Below are positions 19,841 through 26,273 of a stretch of 64,000 nt of DNA, piece by piece (the stretch's first letter is position 1; every line of letters starts with the position of its first letter). The position numbers were made by a program, and so were the translations under genes. Below the pieces are notes generated by a model that was given only the letters and a program-made list of their open reading frames with translations, was not told the origin of the DNA and ran no database searches. Origin of the DNA: Tabrizicola sp. (GTDB lineage Bacteria > Pseudomonadota > Alphaproteobacteria > Rhodobacterales > Rhodobacteraceae); NCBI RefSeq assembly GCF_016793705.1, contig NZ_JAEULO010000042.1, forward strand, positions 62,001 through 126,000, in the 5' to 3' direction.

Positions 19841-20509
19841 TCACCCCTGCGGTTCGCGCAAGGCAGTGACGTTGGTTGCCAGCACCTCGGCGCCGCCCTG
19901 CAACACCAGCCGGGTCCCGCTGGTGCCCCCGCCCTTCGCCTCGATCACCCGGGCATAGTGTTCGACCGGCGTCGTCGCGATCACCGTCTCGCCATTCAGG
20001 CTTTCCAACTCGATGGTATAACTGCCCGCGGGCAGGGGATTGCCGTCGATCCCGGCGCCGAGCCACTGGTAAGGCTCCGCGCTGACCGGAATCTCCTCGC
20101 GCGAGACGAGGGTGCCTTGCGCATCCTTCACCACCAGCACCGCCCGGTTCGCCCCCACTGCCGGGTTCGGCGACAGGGTGACCGCCGATCCGTCGTAGCG
20201 GACAGGCGCCGCCGACCGAGCCTCCTTCCCGATCCAGCTTGCCATTTCCGCCATGCCGAGCTGCTGGAACCGGCCCTGAAGGTCGGCCAGCAACTGATTG
20301 GTCCTGACCTGCTGCTCGACGCCGGAAAAGGTGGCGAGCTGCACGGCGTAATCCGCCGAATCGATCGGGTTCAGCGGGTCCTGGTTCTGCATCTGCACCG
20401 TCAGCATCCGCAGGAAAGTGTTGAAATCGGAACTGATCGTCGTCGCGGCTCCGCTCGTACCGGCAGTGCCGGTCGCCGAGGACGCGGAAGTGGCAGAGGT
20501 GACGTCCAT
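19841..20509 (-). CDS. flgD: Flagellar hook assembly protein FlgD
   Basis: A 222-residue hook-cap protein. The conserved N-terminal region reads FLRMLTVQMQNQDPLNPIDS followed by QLATFSGVEQQVRTN, which is the FlgD hallmark. The C-terminal half is the beta-rich capping domain (FLIg-like). It caps the growing hook and is lost afterwards. It starts 7 bp after the fliK stop, forming a fliK-flgD operon on the minus strand. The sequence is intact. Confidence 0.95.
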   Translation of the reverse strand: MDVTSATSASSATGTAGTSGAATTISSDFNTFLRMLTVQMQNQDPLNPIDSADYAVQLATFSGVEQQVRTNQLLADLQGRFQQLGMAEMASWIGKEARSAAPVRYDGSAVTLSPNPAVGANRAVLVVKDAQGTLVSREEIPVSAEPYQWLGAGIDGNPLPAGSYTIELESLNGETVIATTPVEHYARVIEAKGGGTSGTRLVLQGGAEVLATNVTALREPQG

Positions 20510-20516
20510 TCTGGCC

Positions 20517-22445
20517 TCACAATCTCAGGTCAAGGGAAGCCGCGCCGTCCTGTCGCGACGAGGGCGGCGGGGCACCGGCAGGATCGGGCCGGAGCACGCT
20601 GCCAAGGCTTCGCCCTGCTGTCGTCTCACGGCCGTCCGGGTCCGGCTGTCCGCCGCCCTGCTGGCCGAAACCGATGTCGGCCCCGGCATAGCCTGCCGAC
20701 CGGAAGGCATTGGACAGCTCGCCTGCGTGACGACGGAACAGCTCCAATGTCTCGGGGCGCTCGAAAGTGATCATCACCACAAGCCGGTCCGGGTTGGCGG
20801 CATCCGGCTTCAGCCTGACCCGGACCTTACCCAGTTCCTCCGGCGAAAGCGCCAGTTCGGTCGCCCCGTCAGCGCTTTGTGACAGGGCAGCGCCAATCTG
20901 CGCGGCAAGCTGCGGAACCTGCGGGGCGACCACCGTCGGTGAAAGAGTTGCGTTGGTCGTGCCGGGGTTGGCAGGAAGGGTTGCCGCCCAGCCCGGCAGG
21001 CCCGCATCGGTCATCCATTCGCGCCGGACATCTTCGATAGGGACCGGTTCTAGAGCAGGGCGCGGCAGGCCGGTCCCCGGCAGCGCAGGCTTCGGGAAAG
21101 ACGGCGCCACCGGAAGCGGCGCGGCGGGCTGCGGGTCAGAAACATCCTGACGCGAATCCGGTTCGCTCCCGTCGACAGACAGTGGGGCCACGGTCTTGAG
21201 CGACGGGACCACTGCTGCCAGCATCGAAGCCATGGCTGGCGCTTCGTCCACATCATCCGTTCGCGTGGGGGACGGAGCGATGACTCCGCTGAAAAACCAC
21301 TCCCAGACACCGGGATTCAGCGCCCGGGTGGCATCGCCGGCGGGCATCGTTGGGCCAAGCTGCGTCCGGGAAGCACCGCCTGCCGGCGGCTTTAGGGCGG
21401 CGGGTGGCGGAGAGGCCTTCCTCTGGGTCAAAGCCGATGCCGACAGCAGCGGATCCGGTGATCCCTCCGGGGCGTTCTCCGCTTCAGGATCATTGGGCAG
21501 GACGCTGATGTCCTCAGCTGCCCCGGTCGACGTCCCCGCCGCACCGGGCTCCCCCGGTTTCGGCCCTTCCGTCGCAAGCCCCTGACCCGGCGCCGCGGCT
21601 TTTGGCGGCGTCCCGGCGACCTCGGCCCTGCCCGGGCCCGGCTCCGCCGTCCTTGCGGAAAAAACTGCGCTCTCCCTCCCGTCCCATGCAGGGGCCGCCA
21701 ATCCAGCCGCCCCGTCCGCTGGATCGGAAGCGGACCCGTCTGCAGTTTCAAGACCGGTCGGGGCGGGTCTGTGACCTGCATCTGCCGCCGCAAAGGACGG
21801 ACGAGCCGCCGACTGCATCTCCCGGTTGCCCGAGGAAAGCGCCGGCGGAACCGATCCCGGCATGCCCGCCGCCGCCGGAGTTGCCCCAGACATTCCCGGC
21901 GCAGGCCTTTCACCTTCTGGCAGCGTCATTCCTTCCGCAGCTTCGGCTTGCCGTTTGTCGGGCAAATCCGCCGCGAACGGGCCAGTCGATAGCCCAATCC
22001 CCCGCATCGGACGAGTTGCGGGGCCATCCACCCCCTGCCCTCCATCCGGGACCGCCACCTCCGTCCCTACGGTCACCCGCCCGTCCCTTGCCGACCCGGT
22101 CGTCCCAGACCAGGCAGGCAGATCGACACCGGTCTCCGGCTTGGCCGGACCTGCTCCGTCCGTCGGCCCGACCGCACCGGCGCCGCTTTCGCGACCCGAA
22201 GTGGCTATGAGCCCCTCGCCGCGCTCCTCGACCTCAGCCATCGCCCCAAGCCCGGCCACCCAGGCAGGCACCGCCCAGACTTCAGCCGCCGCGCAATCGG
22301 CCTCCCGCCCTGTGCCCGCCTCGCCCCGCTCTTGCTCGACCACATCACCGAAGGCCGGGCCGACCGCACCCTCCGCTGCAACCGGATCGCCTGCCCCCCC
22401 TGCCGGGACAATGGACACAGGAAGGATCGTCTGGACGCTTTGCAT
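20517..22445 (-). CDS. fliK: Flagellar hook-length control protein FliK
   Basis: A 642-residue protein with a long, low-complexity Ala/Pro/Gly-rich body (about residues 1-500), as expected for a secreted molecular ruler, and a conserved C-terminal domain (about 540-620). That domain includes ELALSPEELGKVRVRLKPD and the LVVMITFERPETLELFRRH segment typical of FliK switch domains. It sets hook length and triggers export-specificity switching at FlhB. It is divergent from the FlgJ-like gene and is co-transcribed with flgD. Confidence 0.88.
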   Translation of the reverse strand: MQSVQTILPVSIVPAGGAGDPVAAEGAVGPAFGDVVEQERGEAGTGREADCAAAEVWAVPAWVAGLGAMAEVEERGEGLIATSGRESGAGAVGPTDGAGPAKPETGVDLPAWSGTTGSARDGRVTVGTEVAVPDGGQGVDGPATRPMRGIGLSTGPFAADLPDKRQAEAAEGMTLPEGERPAPGMSGATPAAAGMPGSVPPALSSGNREMQSAARPSFAAADAGHRPAPTGLETADGSASDPADGAAGLAAPAWDGRESAVFSARTAEPGPGRAEVAGTPPKAAAPGQGLATEGPKPGEPGAAGTSTGAAEDISVLPNDPEAENAPEGSPDPLLSASALTQRKASPPPAALKPPAGGASRTQLGPTMPAGDATRALNPGVWEWFFSGVIAPSPTRTDDVDEAPAMASMLAAVVPSLKTVAPLSVDGSEPDSRQDVSDPQPAAPLPVAPSFPKPALPGTGLPRPALEPVPIEDVRREWMTDAGLPGWAATLPANPGTTNATLSPTVVAPQVPQLAAQIGAALSQSADGATELALSPEELGKVRVRLKPDAANPDRLVVMITFERPETLELFRRHAGELSNAFRSAGYAGADIGFGQQGGGQPDPDGRETTAGRSLGSVLRPDPAGAPPPSSRQDGAASLDLRL

Positions 22446-22554
22446 GATTCCACGACTTCTGCCGCATTCGCCCCCTTATCCCGCCGAGAAGTTACCCATT
22501 CTTTACCCCCCTCGCGGATCGTTGCGGAAAATCCGACCGATCCGGGAGACCCCG

Positions 22555-22827
22555 ATGGACATCCAGCCGATCACCGCCCATCCCCCCTCGCACCGCGACC
22601 AGCTCATGTCCAAGGCCGAAGAGCTGGAGGCCACCTTCCTCTCCGAAATGCTTGCCCATTCCGGCCTGGGCGAAATGCACGGCAGCTTCGGCGGCGGCGA
22701 GGGCGAGGCCCAGTTTTCCTCGTTCCTGCGCCAGGAGCAGGCCAGGCTCATCGTCCAGAAAGGCGGGCTGGGGCTGGCGGAGCTGATCTTCAACTCCATG
22801 GTGAAGGCCGAAGACAATGCCCCTTGA
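22555..22827 (+). CDS. Rod-binding protein, FlgJ N-terminal type
   Basis: A 90-residue protein covering only the rod-binding domain of FlgJ: KAEELEATFLSEMLAHSGLGEM, GGGEGEAQFSSFLRQEQA and GLGLAELIFNSM. Alphaproteobacterial FlgJ/CheL-type proteins lack the muramidase domain, so this length is normal. It should act as a rod cap or scaffold in the periplasm. The ATG at 22555 follows GGGAGAC. Its end overlaps the next gene by 11 bases, and it is divergent from fliK. Confidence 0.88.
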   Translation: MDIQPITAHPPSHRDQLMSKAEELEATFLSEMLAHSGLGEMHGSFGGGEGEAQFSSFLRQEQARLIVQKGGLGLAELIFNSMVKAEDNAP

Positions 22828-23125
22828 AACCCTGCTCGACCAGGTCGCCGCCGCGCTGATGGCGGGCGATCTCGCCTCCCTTGCCCGGCTGACCCCCGGG
22901 GTCGAGGCAGCTCGAATCACCCCTGCCAACCGCGCCGAAGCCGAGCGGTTGCAGATGAAGGCCCGGCGCAACGCCCGGCTTCTGGAAGCGGCCACCCGTG
23001 GCGTGAAGGCCGCGCGCCTGCGCATGACCGAGATCGCCCGTGGCCCGACGCTCACCACCTATGACGCACGCGGGCAGAAGGCCGAAATCGCGACCCTGGA
23101 CCGCATCCCGGCCAGACGCGTCTGA
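22817..23125 (+). CDS. FlgN-like small flagellar protein
   Basis: A 102-residue mostly helical protein with the pattern LLDQVAAALMAGDLASLARLTPGVE, then RAEAERLQMKARRNARLLEAATRGVKAARLR. It resembles short FlgN-type export chaperones for hook-associated proteins, which pair with FlgJ-type genes in this order. It overlaps the rod-binding gene by 11 bases and so is translated from the same message. The function rests on context and helical pattern rather than a strong motif. Confidence 0.6.
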   Translation: MPLETLLDQVAAALMAGDLASLARLTPGVEAARITPANRAEAERLQMKARRNARLLEAATRGVKAARLRMTEIARGPTLTTYDARGQKAEIATLDRIPARRV

Positions 23126-23160: not shown

Positions 23161-23175
23161 TTAGGAATTGGTTAG
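23161..23175 (+). promoter_or_regulatory. CtrA-box-like site TTAG-N7-TTAG
   Basis: The half-sites TTAG at 23161-23164 and 23172-23175 are seven bases apart. The CtrA consensus is TTAA-N7-TTAA, and CtrA controls flagellar genes in Rhodobacterales. It lies about 145 bp upstream of the flagellin-derived start. The match is imperfect at the last base of each half. Confidence 0.3.
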
Positions 23176-23320: not shown

Positions 23321-24691
23321 ATGTCGTCGATCCTGACCAATACCAGCGCGATGGTTGCCCTGCAGACGATGAAGGGCATCAACGCCAACCTGAACAAGAC
23401 CCAGGCCGACATCTCGACCGGCAAGTCGGTCGCCACCGCCAAGGACAATGCCGCCTATTGGCGCGCGAAGGAGGGCGAGATCGCCCGCACCCTCCTTGCG
23501 ATGCCCGAGGTCAAGGCCGCCCGGGTCCACATCGCCAGCGCACCGACCCGCGTGTTCCAGCCGGAAGCCAAGCCCACCGCCTCGGTCACGCTGACCACGG
23601 TGTCCGGCGCGCTGACCGAGGCGCAGGCCCGCGCGATCCGGCATCTGGTGGCCAGCGCCGTTGCAGGCATGACGCCGGACGCGGTGCAGATCATCGACAC
23701 CGTCGCGGGCCTCATCGGCGGCGAAGAGGCACAGGCCTTCGACACCGGCGATGCCGCCGACCGCGCCGCCGCGATCAAGGGCAATGTCGAGCGTCTGCTG
23801 GCCGCCCGCGTCGGCGCCGGAAAGGCGGTGGTCGAGGTTTCCATCGACCTCGTCTCGGAACGCGAGGCGATCACCGAGCGGAAGCTCGACCCGCAGGGCC
23901 GGGTGGCGATTTCCTCGGAAACCGAGGAGCGCAGCGGGTCGAGCACCGAACCCGGTGGCGCGGTGACAGTCGCCTCGAACCTTCCGGAAGGCGATGCGGG
24001 CGCGGGCGGCGAGGGCAAGAGCCAGAATTCCGAAACCCGGGAGCGGGTGAACTATGAAGTTTCCGAAACCTCGCGCGAGATCCTGCGCAATCCGGGCGCC
24101 GTGCGGCGGATGACGGTGGCGGTCATGATCGACGGGGTGGCAACCATCGCCGCCGACGGCACGCGGACATGGGCGGCCCGCCCCGAGGAAGAGCTGGCGG
24201 TACTGCGTGAGCTGGTGGCCTCGGCCGTCGGATTGGACGAGACACGCGGCGATGTCCTGACCCTGAAATCGCTGGAATTCCAACCCGTCGCGGCCCCCGA
24301 AGGCACCGAGGCCACTGCGGGCCTCCTGCCGCAGATCGGCCAGATCGACCTGATGTCGATGATCCAGACCGCCGTCCTCGCCCTTGTGGCGCTGGTCCTG
24401 GGCCTGTTCGTTATCCGGCCCGTGCTGACCTCGGCCAATCGCGCCGCCCTGCCCGCTCCCGAGGCGCCGCTCGCCCTACCACCGGCGATGACCTCGGGCG
24501 CGATGGCGATCAGCGGGGTGGTGGATGACGGGTTCGACTATGGCGCCTTCGCCAGCCCCGGTGGTGGACAGATCGAGGGCGAGGCCAGCGAGGAGGACCC
24601 GGCCACGCGCCTGCGCCGCCTGATCGAGCAGCGTCAGACCGAATCGATCGAGATCCTGCGCGGCTGGATGGAAGAGGAGGAGCCCGCCTGA
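23321..24691 (+). CDS. In-frame chimera: flagellin N-terminus joined to FliF lacking its N-terminal part
   Basis: A 456-codon open frame built from two genes. Residues 1-47 (MSSILTNTSAMVALQTM ... TAKDNAAYW) are the N-terminal D0/D1 segment of an alphaproteobacterial flagellin. From about residue 48 the sequence is FliF, the MS-ring protein: GEIARTLLAMPEVKAARVHIA (ring domain), SETSREILRNPGAVRRMTVAVM, a C-terminal membrane helix near 346-368, and the FliG-binding tail RQTESIEILRGWMEEEE. The first FliF membrane helix and ring-1 domain are absent, so a working MS ring is unlikely. The frame continues into fliH by a TGATG overlap, so distal genes could still be translated. Deletion or misassembly are the two explanations. 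Confidence 0.9.
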   Translation: MSSILTNTSAMVALQTMKGINANLNKTQADISTGKSVATAKDNAAYWRAKEGEIARTLLAMPEVKAARVHIASAPTRVFQPEAKPTASVTLTTVSGALTEAQARAIRHLVASAVAGMTPDAVQIIDTVAGLIGGEEAQAFDTGDAADRAAAIKGNVERLLAARVGAGKAVVEVSIDLVSEREAITERKLDPQGRVAISSETEERSGSSTEPGGAVTVASNLPEGDAGAGGEGKSQNSETRERVNYEVSETSREILRNPGAVRRMTVAVMIDGVATIAADGTRTWAARPEEELAVLRELVASAVGLDETRGDVLTLKSLEFQPVAAPEGTEATAGLLPQIGQIDLMSMIQTAVLALVALVLGLFVIRPVLTSANRAALPAPEAPLALPPAMTSGAMAISGVVDDGFDYGAFASPGGGQIEGEASEEDPATRLRRLIEQRQTESIEILRGWMEEEEPA

Positions 24692-25272
24692 TGCCCGCCC
24701 TGCGTCTGGAAGTCTTCGATACCGCCCCGGCCCCGGATTGCTCGATGCGGCCCCTGGTCGAGGCGACCGCGGTCGAGGAGGCGAAGGTCGCCTCGTTCGA
24801 GCAGGGCTATTCCGCCGGCTGGGACGATGCCGTGGCGGCCCAGCAGGGCGACCAGTCCCGCATCCGGGCCGACCTCGCGCGGAACCTGCAAAGCCTGTCC
24901 TTCACCTTCCAGGACGCGCGGGCCCATGTCTTGCAGGCGATCCGGCCGCTGATCCTGCAAATGATCGACCGGCTCCTGCCCGAAGTCGCGCGCGAGACGC
25001 TGGCGCCCACAGTGCTGGACGCAGTGATGCCCCTTGCGGAAAGCCTCGCCGACGCTCCGCTGACGCTGGTCCTGAACCCCGCCGTCCGGGCACAGGTCGA
25101 GGACCTCGTGTCGCAGGCAACCGGCCTGCCGATGGTCATCGACGAAGAGCCGACGATGCCCGAGGGCCGGGTCTACATCCGCCTGGGAACATCCGAGACC
25201 AAGGTCGACCTCGCCCAGGTGACGACCGACATCGCCATCGCGGTCCGGGCCTTCTTCACCCTCCAGAGCTGA
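24691..25272 (+). CDS. fliH: Flagellar assembly protein FliH-like
   Basis: A 193-residue protein in the FliF-FliH-FliN-FliP order. It has an acidic N-terminal segment (EEAKVASFEQGYSAGWDDAV), which is the FliH/YscL-type start, and a helical region, and a C-terminal domain with LTLVLNPAVRAQVEDLVSQA like the FliH/V-ATPase E-type fold. FliH regulates the export ATPase FliI. Its ATG at 24691 uses the last base of the upstream TGA. No fliI is in the window. The sequence itself appears intact. Confidence 0.8.
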   Translation: MPALRLEVFDTAPAPDCSMRPLVEATAVEEAKVASFEQGYSAGWDDAVAAQQGDQSRIRADLARNLQSLSFTFQDARAHVLQAIRPLILQMIDRLLPEVARETLAPTVLDAVMPLAESLADAPLTLVLNPAVRAQVEDLVSQATGLPMVIDEEPTMPEGRVYIRLGTSETKVDLAQVTTDIAIAVRAFFTLQS

Positions 25273-25281
25273 GGAGACATC

Positions 25282-25551
25282 ATGGAAGACATCACTGACG
25301 CCAACCCCTTCAGCCAGGTCCCGATCGAGGTCACGATCTCGGTCGGCCGGGCCCGCCCCCTGGTGCGCGACCTTCTGCGGCTGTCGAGGGACGCCGTCCT
25401 GCAACTGGACCGCCGGGTGGATGACCCGGTGGAGCTGTATGTCGGCGACCGGCTGATCGCGCGGGGGGAGCTGACCGAGCTTGAGGGTGACAGTGCCGGG
25501 CAGCTGGCCGTGCGGCTGACCGAGGTCGCCAACCTGCGGGGCGGGCTGTGA
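25282..25551 (+). CDS. fliN: Flagellar motor switch protein FliN
   Basis: An 89-residue SpoA-domain protein: VPIEVTISVGRARPLVRDLLRL, VDDPVELYVGDRLIARGEL, and AVRLTEV at the C-terminus are the FliN/YscQ core. It forms the C-ring and binds FliH. Short FliN proteins of this size are normal. The final GTGA overlaps the fliP start. Confidence 0.93.
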   Translation: MEDITDANPFSQVPIEVTISVGRARPLVRDLLRLSRDAVLQLDRRVDDPVELYVGDRLIARGELTELEGDSAGQLAVRLTEVANLRGGL

Positions 25552-26273
25552 GGCTTGGCCTCGGCCTTGCCGTCGCGCTGACGCTGCTGGCGGGGCCGGC
25601 GCTGGCGCAGCAGGTGTCGATCGACCTCGGCGGCGGGGCGGGGGAGTCGCTCTCGCTCCGGTCGGTGCAGCTTCTGTTGCTGGTCACGGTGCTGTCCATC
25701 GTGCCGGGGCTCGCGGTGATGGTCACCTGCTTTCCCTTCATCGTCACGGTGCTGTCGATCCTGCGGCAGGCGCTGGGCTTGCAGCAGGCGCCGCCGAACA
25801 TGCTGATCATCAGCCTTTCGCTGTTCCTGACCTGGTTCGTGATGGACCCGGTCTTCACCGAGGCCTGGGTCAAGGGGATCGAGCCGATGACGAACGGAAC
25901 ACTGGAGGTGGGGCCGGGCTTGCAGGCCGCCATCGCGCCGTTCCGGGTCTTCATGGCGGGGCGGGTCGATCCGGAGACCTTGCAGACCCTACAGGACCTG
26001 CGCTCCACCGCCGCCGTCACGCCCGCCGACGCGCCGCTGTCGCTGCTGGTTCCCTCATTCCTGCTGTCCGAGATCCAGCGCGCCTTCGAGATCGGCTTCA
26101 TGATCTTCCTGCCCTTCCTGATCATCGACCTCGTGGTCGCTGCGATCCTGATGTCGATGGGGATGATGATGGTCCCGCCGGCGGTGGTCTCGCTGCCGTT
26201 CAAGCTGATCTTCTTCGTGGTGGCCGATGGCTGGGCGCTGGTTTCAGGGGCGCTGGTCAGGAGCTATTTCTGA
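25548..26273 (+). CDS. fliP: Flagellar biosynthesis protein FliP
   Basis: A 241-residue export-gate protein. A cleavable signal peptide is visible (LGLAVALTLLAGPALAQQ), then four membrane helices. Diagnostic segments are TCFPFIVTVLSILRQALGLQ, PPNMLIISLSLFLTWFVM, and PSFLLSEIQRAFEIGFMIFLPFLIIDLV. The start is a GTG at 25548 overlapping fliN. FliP, with FliQ and FliR, builds the export pore. No fliQ, fliR, flhA or flhB follows; the cluster stops here and ispE comes next on the other strand. Confidence 0.97.
   Translation: MRLGLGLAVALTLLAGPALAQQVSIDLGGGAGESLSLRSVQLLLLVTVLSIVPGLAVMVTCFPFIVTVLSILRQALGLQQAPPNMLIISLSLFLTWFVMDPVFTEAWVKGIEPMTNGTLEVGPGLQAAIAPFRVFMAGRVDPETLQTLQDLRSTAAVTPADAPLSLLVPSFLLSEIQRAFEIGFMIFLPFLIIDLVVAAILMSMGMMMVPPAVVSLPFKLIFFVVADGWALVSGALVRSYF

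Follow-up and report, generated by a model that had tools for sequence, protein, structure and literature searches.

How does a single open reading frame come to begin as a flagellin and continue as FliF, and why does the same joint occur in four species that are not a clade? The question is raised by an ORF of 456 amino acids (23321-24691, + strand) in the window, that is, the whole 64,000-nucleotide stretch of Tabrizicola sp. DNA analysed here, from the genome that we call G000. The ORF is made up as follows:

23321..23455, + strand: flagellin-derived start, codons 1-45 (Flagellin_N match; aligned with the flagellin starts of 14 intact relatives)
23450..23456, + strand: junction, GCCGCC and then TAT, the first FliF-only codon (same codon in all four fused genomes)
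23456..24691, + strand: FliF-derived part with RBM2, RBM3, TM2 and the C-terminus, lacking TM1 and RBM1 (Pfam YscJ_FliF and YscJ_FliF_C; alignments to Salmonella FliF and to an intact relative)
24359..24415, + strand: hydrophobic stretch corresponding to FliF TM2 (read from sequence and alignment, not tool-predicted)

The Pfam profile Flagellin_N matches residues 4-48 (E 5e-7), which cover only profile positions 1-45 of 139, and there is no Flagellin_C match; complete flagellin helical domains are thus absent from the fusion. Behind this start, YscJ_FliF matches by its tail only (profile 69-174 of 179) and YscJ_FliF_C over its full length (1-147 of 147). Set against the relatives' genes, codons 1-45 resemble flagellin and codon 46 onward resembles FliF (..DAAYWRAKEGE..), with the joint near residue 132 of Salmonella FliF; both the YscJ_FliF profile and the Salmonella alignment place TM1 and RBM1 among the missing parts. 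The first-pass annotation, made from this sequence by itself, had proposed a flagellin start fused in frame to a FliF without its first membrane helix and ring-1 domain. Pfam and the relatives' genes confirm the fusion, and the alignment to Salmonella FliF confirms that TM1 and RBM1 are gone. The flagellin origin of the start stood, with its length corrected from about 47 codons to 45 by alignment, and the switch, which had been placed near 23459-23470, lies a few bases earlier, at 23450-23456. The fusion passes the NCBI equivalog model for FliF, TIGR00206 (132.2 bits vs a cut-off of 129.75), which is misleading, since TM1 and RBM1 are missing. Automatic annotation likely calls the scar FliF and hides the loss and, because the scar passes this model, fliF-based counts of flagellated genomes can be wrong.

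The neighbouring features in the window are these:

19841..20509, - strand: flgD (FlgD and FlgD_ig, Pfam; NF009453 above cut-off)
20517..22445, - strand: fliK (Flg_hook, Pfam)
22537..22827, + strand: flgJ-like rod-binding gene (Rod-binding, Pfam; NF009431 below cut-off)
22817..23125, + strand: flgN-like gene, named by position (no Pfam or NCBIfam match; kept at the same place in intact relatives)
23161..23175, + strand: CtrA-like site TTAG-N7-TTAG, about 160 nt before the ATG (18 of 18 loci, 4 fused and 14 intact)
24691..25272, + strand: fliH-like gene (weak NCBIfam match below cut-off; no Pfam match; follows fliF)
25282..25551, + strand: fliN (FliMN_C, Pfam; TIGR02480 below cut-off)
25548..26273, + strand: fliP (FliP, Pfam; TIGR01103 above cut-off)

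A fliFHNP operon, with fliH directly behind fliF, is described for fla1 clusters (PMC12363192). The TTAG-N7-TTAG motif is a site kept from the flagellin gene, and its putative link to CtrA is one of resemblance. As had been proposed, fliH, fliN and fliP are still coupled behind the old flagellin upstream region, CtrA-like site included. The accompanying claim that export components remain holds for FliP and FliH, which are in the window, but not for FlhA, FlhB, FliQ and FliI, whose genes belong to the segment that is missing.

The whole locus was in hand for three intact relatives, G007, G013 and G045. In G007 and G013, flgD, fliK, flgJ and flgN stand on the left and are followed by a complete flagellin gene, while the right flank, about 18.8 kb from the flagellin, holds a complete fliF, fliH, fliN, fliP and ispE. 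The missing distance is 18,769 bp measured against G007, 18,869 bp against G013 and 18,713 bp against G045. According to Pfam, the G007 segment begins with the rest of fliC, flaF, a DUF1217 gene, fliI, flgB, flgC and fliE, continues with fliQ, flgF, flgG, flgA, a fliL-like gene, flhB, flhA and motA, and ends with MgtE_N and DUF6468-like genes, fliL and the start of fliF; flgH, fliR and others in it were assigned by position only. This gene order is that of the fla1-type cluster of Rhodobacterales (PMC12363192). A deletion of everything between the flagellin gene and fliF had been suspected from the sequence, and the relatives bear this out: they carry both genes complete with about 18.8 kb of flagellar genes between them, and the comparison of the locus identifies the missing genes and finds the outer flanks collinear with the window. 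A precise deletion of about 18.8 kb, in frame and reaching from flagellin codon 45 to the RBM2 region of fliF, left this ORF as its scar and removed most of the rod, the export gate, the ATPase, motA and flagellin.

Since Phaeobacter transposon mutants in flhA, flhB, fliR, fliQ, fliI, motA and fliE, and likewise in flgC, flgF, flgG and flgH, are immotile (PMC12363192), a fla1 flagellum is not expected in the fused species, and presumably none can be built. The genome from which the window comes (73 contigs, 94.5% complete, 4.48% contamination) agrees with this expectation: the fusion is its sole YscJ_FliF match and its sole Flagellin_N match, a search across it for intact flagellin and fliF genes returned none besides the fusion, and the set of flagellin, export gate and rod genes by which we would recognize a functional fla1 system was not found in it. 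In this 94.5% complete bin there was no match for FlhA, for FlgI or for the C-terminal domain of the FlgE/F/G type (Flg_bbr_C), while FliM is present. The flagellin-FliF chimera itself is more likely a by-product than a functional protein. The other three fused genomes retain FlgI and two Flg_bbr_C genes, unlike G000, where their absence could mean that they too were lost or that the bin has a gap there.

Within the genus (Tabrizicola-like Rhodobacteraceae), 4 of the 32 genomes examined have the fusion, all with the joint at one codon: G000, the Tabrizicola MAG G017 (L033), the pond MAG G008 (L034) and G022, which is the isolate Rhodobacter sp. SY28-1 (L035). Published work groups the last with R. 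thermarum and R. flagellatus, two species now assigned to Tabrizicola (PMC9231093, PMC9044078). FliF without fusion was found in 27 genomes, two of which (G012 and G046) have it cut by contig ends, and the one genome with no FliF match, G009, is 59% complete. FlhA is present in all 27 genomes with non-fused FliF and absent from three of the fused ones; that of G008 is a different FlhA, on a second flagellar cluster. Thus, all four cases of fla1 loss seen among the 32 genomes carry one scar. Among 80 loci of 168 relatives, with one genome per species, at least three fusions besides that of G000 were found, and these are the ones of G017, G008 and G022. Across the family, the exact junction pattern occurred in 1 of 394 genomes, G000, in a search that would miss a fusion placed differently; the best 12 of 218 matching plasmid records cover the query from residue 30 or later, and none is a fusion. 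Among the papers listed by searches of open-licence literature, no title or abstract opening describes a flagellin-FliF fusion. The recurrence of the scar in species that are not sisters goes beyond the earlier reading of a single sequence.

That reading had also allowed for an assembly join. Three of the four fused genomes are indeed metagenome bins (G000 by its contig and contamination figures, G017, 70% complete, and G008 by the MAG in their record titles), and each fused species is represented by one strain. However, the same codon-level joint occurs in four independent assemblies, one of them an isolate with a 1.8-Mb contig, and the fused genomes differ in synonymous bases on both sides of it. 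The joint in three further genomes, a cultured isolate included, excludes chance and misassembly and refutes the assembly join; an artefact of assembly or binning is scarcely credible.

The four fused species are not a clade. On a protein tree of gyrB and addA (28 genomes), the fusion needs four changes, and on one of fliF, fliH, fliN and fliP (29 genomes) it needs three, all forced by starred branches. In the flagellar-gene tree, G022 pairs with the intact G020, G008 stands beside the intact G045, G011, G007 and G005, and G000 and G017 together (96/97) stand beside the intact G010 and G044. Forcing one clade on the nucleotides of the same four genes makes the tree 211 log units worse (p-AU 6e-63). 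One clade is also rejected upstream, in three windows ending at the ATG (p-AU 4e-5, 2e-100 and 2e-5, the last for -350..0), within fliF (codons 100-160, 0.016; codons 380-456, 0.013; whole gene, 7e-7) and in fliH (6e-5), fliN (0.039), fliP (0.008), gyrB (0.005) and addA (1e-7). The windows that do not reject it are fliF codons 46-100 (0.14), 160-230 (0.11), 230-300 (0.08) and 300-380 (0.06), the flagellin window by itself (0.50) and the flagellin window joined to codons 46-100 (0.43).

A flagellin-side haplotype shared by the four was considered and set aside: a 138-base window groups all of them, but solely through codon 46. This codon is derived from fliF and the window holds no other shared derived base, so the flagellin window is no evidence for one origin; in codons 1-44, no derived base is common to all four fused genes. 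The genes gyrB and addA disagree in part (gyrB loci L161-L189), gyrB placing G020 with G001 and G008 with G022 (95/96), a conflict which implies that genes cross between species of the genus. A broken addA in G017 and G022, each with one TGA at query position 6 or 10, was also discounted, since the stop precedes the conserved part and a nearby in-frame ATG and does not show a defect.

All four fused genomes switch at the identical codon, and the bases near the junction follow each species' own kin. Codon 49, for example, is GCC in G022, as in G001, G024 and G014, and GCG in the other three fused species. Unbroken identity round the junction extends over 8, 8, 17, 21, 23 and 30 bp in the six pairs of fused genomes; among the four, no foreign tract is visible round the junction, and no derived base outside the junction is common to all. 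What argues for a single origin is therefore how improbable a coincidence would be, and no shared haplotype backs it.

This improbability can be gauged from the intact genomes. In ten of them, the direct repeat at the junction ends reaches a weak 5-8, a score matched by 59-2351 in-frame fliC x fliF pairs; the minimum, 59, is that of G005, where a contig end truncates the flagellin gene. Not even a six-base seed is present in the junction pair of the three complete loci, in which 580, 697 and 715 pairs within a few kb reach a score of 10, which we estimate to be the best repeat that the two protein sequences allow. None of the ten present-day intact genomes has an outstanding direct repeat at the deletion ends. 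Because the junction repeat is so weak, there are many equally good deletion sites, and three independent hits on one such site would be improbable, although the ancestors may have had a better repeat than present-day genomes.

Selection on the genes left behind was estimated with a codon model (custom script; 13 genomes) in which fused and intact terminal branches could differ. In fliF, omega is 0.0532 on fused and 0.0527 on intact branches; the corresponding values are 0.049 and 0.058 for fliH, 0.0095 and 0.019 for fliN, 0.035 and 0.025 for fliP, and 0.084 and 0.094 for flgN, flgJ and flgD. For the fused branches of fliF, forcing omega to 1 costs 184 log units and forcing it to 0.2 costs 48. 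Internal branches have a higher omega (0.11) than terminal ones, perhaps because of saturation. When fliF, fliH, fliN and fliP are taken together and split by lineage, omega is 0.047 in G000, 0.039 in G008, 0.032 in G022 and 0.047 in intact genomes; in G017 it is 0.080, with 0.05 rejected, which indicates some modest relaxation of selection. The flagellin part of the fusion is not speeded up, none of the four fusion ORFs has a stop or frameshift, and fliF, fliH, fliN and fliP are free of stops in all four fused genomes. Apart from the modest rise in G017, the relaxation, stops and frameshifts of a neutral pseudogene were not found. From the omega profiles, we estimate that the share of neutral drift is no more than about 8% for the G017 branch and 1-2% for the other three. 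Each species' fused allele would then be of very recent date, kept fresh by intact alleles, or maintained by selection as a gene.

The reading that we prefer, with moderate confidence, is that one deletion allele has been carried between species by homologous recombination, its flanks being replaced by local sequence. The deletion would have arisen once in a fla1-type cluster, from flagellin codon 45 to the RBM2 region of fliF. A fragment of a few kb from a fused strain, delivered by a gene transfer agent (GTA) or by transformation, could then span the junction and delete 18.8 kb in the recipient, while repair in the opposite direction would take a fragment exceeding 18.8 kb. As intact strains of each species exchanged DNA with the fused ones again and again, the flanks would be swapped for local sequence nearly up to the junction, and the same exchange with intact alleles would keep the leftover genes from decay; a single allele spread with such flank replacement would explain at once why the junction is single, the flanks are native and decay is slight. 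The gyrB/addA conflict makes exchange between species plausible, as does a GTA-type gene in 29 of the 32 genus genomes, including all four fused ones. RcGTA carries about 4.5 kb (PMC9690577), and in transformation the removal of long segments by short fragments is much easier than their restoration (PMC5850275). Spread should leave the same junction in lineages that are not a clade, as was found, and a shared foreign tract, as was not; the lack of a visible foreign tract counts against it, as does the fact that each fused species is known from one genome, in which the other allele is not seen. A fusion already present in the group's ancestor, followed by regain of the 18.8-kb cluster in the intact species, would likewise give a single origin of the junction with native flanks. 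It is very improbable: many regains would be required, the flhA and motA tree of 12 intact genomes recovers the main addA groups with small differences (e.g. G020 and G014), and the inheritance of fla1 clusters is reportedly strictly vertical (PMC12363192).

The scar may instead have formed repeatedly and recently, by a hotspot or by programmed recombination between fliC and fliF that excises the same 18.8 kb, which we regard as possible but doubtful. That the four species are not a clade, that the sequence of each one's own clade reaches within a few bases of the joint and that the leftover genes have hardly decayed all speak for this, the last being expected if each event is young. In the intact G046, moreover, a contig carrying the 3' portion of fliF begins one base ahead of the junction codons (C103, C167; L242, L243), a hint that both alleles were in the sample and that the assembly graph branched there, although its partner contig ends well upstream and not at the flagellin site. 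Against recurrence, the junction repeat is weak and ordinary in present-day intact relatives, neutrality would put each deletion in the last 1-8% or so of its terminal branch (our estimate), and we know of no recombinase for a fliC/fliF junction. We consider it unlikely that a flagellin-FliF chimera, useful with FliH, FliN and FliP outside the flagellum, was favoured more than once. The chimera is open in all four genomes, in frame and with its promoter region kept; its omega equals that of intact fliF (0.053 each), the cost of forcing it to 1 (184 log units, as above) is heavy, and, if G000 and G017 inherited the scar from a common ancestor, the constraint was at work once the fusion existed. 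Its known partners (export gate, ATPase and rod), however, lay in the missing segment, the topology of RBM2 and RBM3 is doubtful without TM1, the relaxation in G017 runs the other way, and the equal conservation of fliN and fliP despite their lost partners is better explained by refreshed or recent flanks than by a new role for one protein. Taken together, a fixed-site 18.8-kb excision repeated in Tabrizicola, whether through programmed or hotspot recombination or through selection of the chimera in flagellum-less cells, is a tentative alternative to the spread of one allele.

Organelle loss tends to be read as a series of unrelated accidents; here, one scar, flanked by native sequence and by remnants that have hardly decayed, lies in four species that are not a clade. 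If the scar travels, organelle loss would be spreading by recombination, with a one-way bias toward loss, since short fragments can delete and cannot restore. If it recurs, it would imply a novel mechanism of precise deletion. In the nifD element of heterocyst-forming cyanobacteria, programmed excision is precise and rejoins reading frames at a fixed site; unlike there, the rejoined frame in Tabrizicola is a chimera of two genes. Chromosomal curing has reportedly been studied for genomic islands and mobile elements in transformable species. The proposed spread shares with transformation asymmetry (PMC5850275) the bias of short fragments and the deletion of long non-mobile segments, but whereas that study deals with genomic islands and mobile elements, the segment here is a vertically inherited core organelle cluster, and we propose a GTA, rather than transformation, as the more likely vector.

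In Rhodobacterales, 51 of 306 taxa lack a flagellar cluster, with independent losses inferred (PMC12363192). Like this sporadic fla1 loss, the present one affects scattered species. Unlike it, only part of the cluster is gone, two genes are left fused in frame, and the breakpoints coincide in four species that do not form a clade; the accessible part of that survey describes no such scar. In FliF-FliG fusions, FliG is joined to FliF in a ring-forming protein (PMC11481574). Both kinds join FliF to another flagellar protein, but in the present one the N-terminal membrane helix and RBM1 of FliF are replaced by a flagellin start.

The second flagellar cluster of G008 (G008:C5; L233-L234) encodes a FlhA 40% and a FliF 37% identical to the fla1 type, so the loss of fla1 need not make G008 non-motile. 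The left part of the deleted segment also shows irregularities of its own (G001:C22, G024:C2, G010:C88 and G020:C8): in three genomes, contigs end about 2.7-2.9 kb past the flagellin gene, and in G020, flagellin and fliF are about 39 kb apart vs the usual 19 or so. Rfam gave no match in the five stretches searched (contig breaks and the G020 insertion), and an rRNA or other known RNA is not supported there; the region between the DUF1217 gene and fliI is likely a spot of rearrangement.
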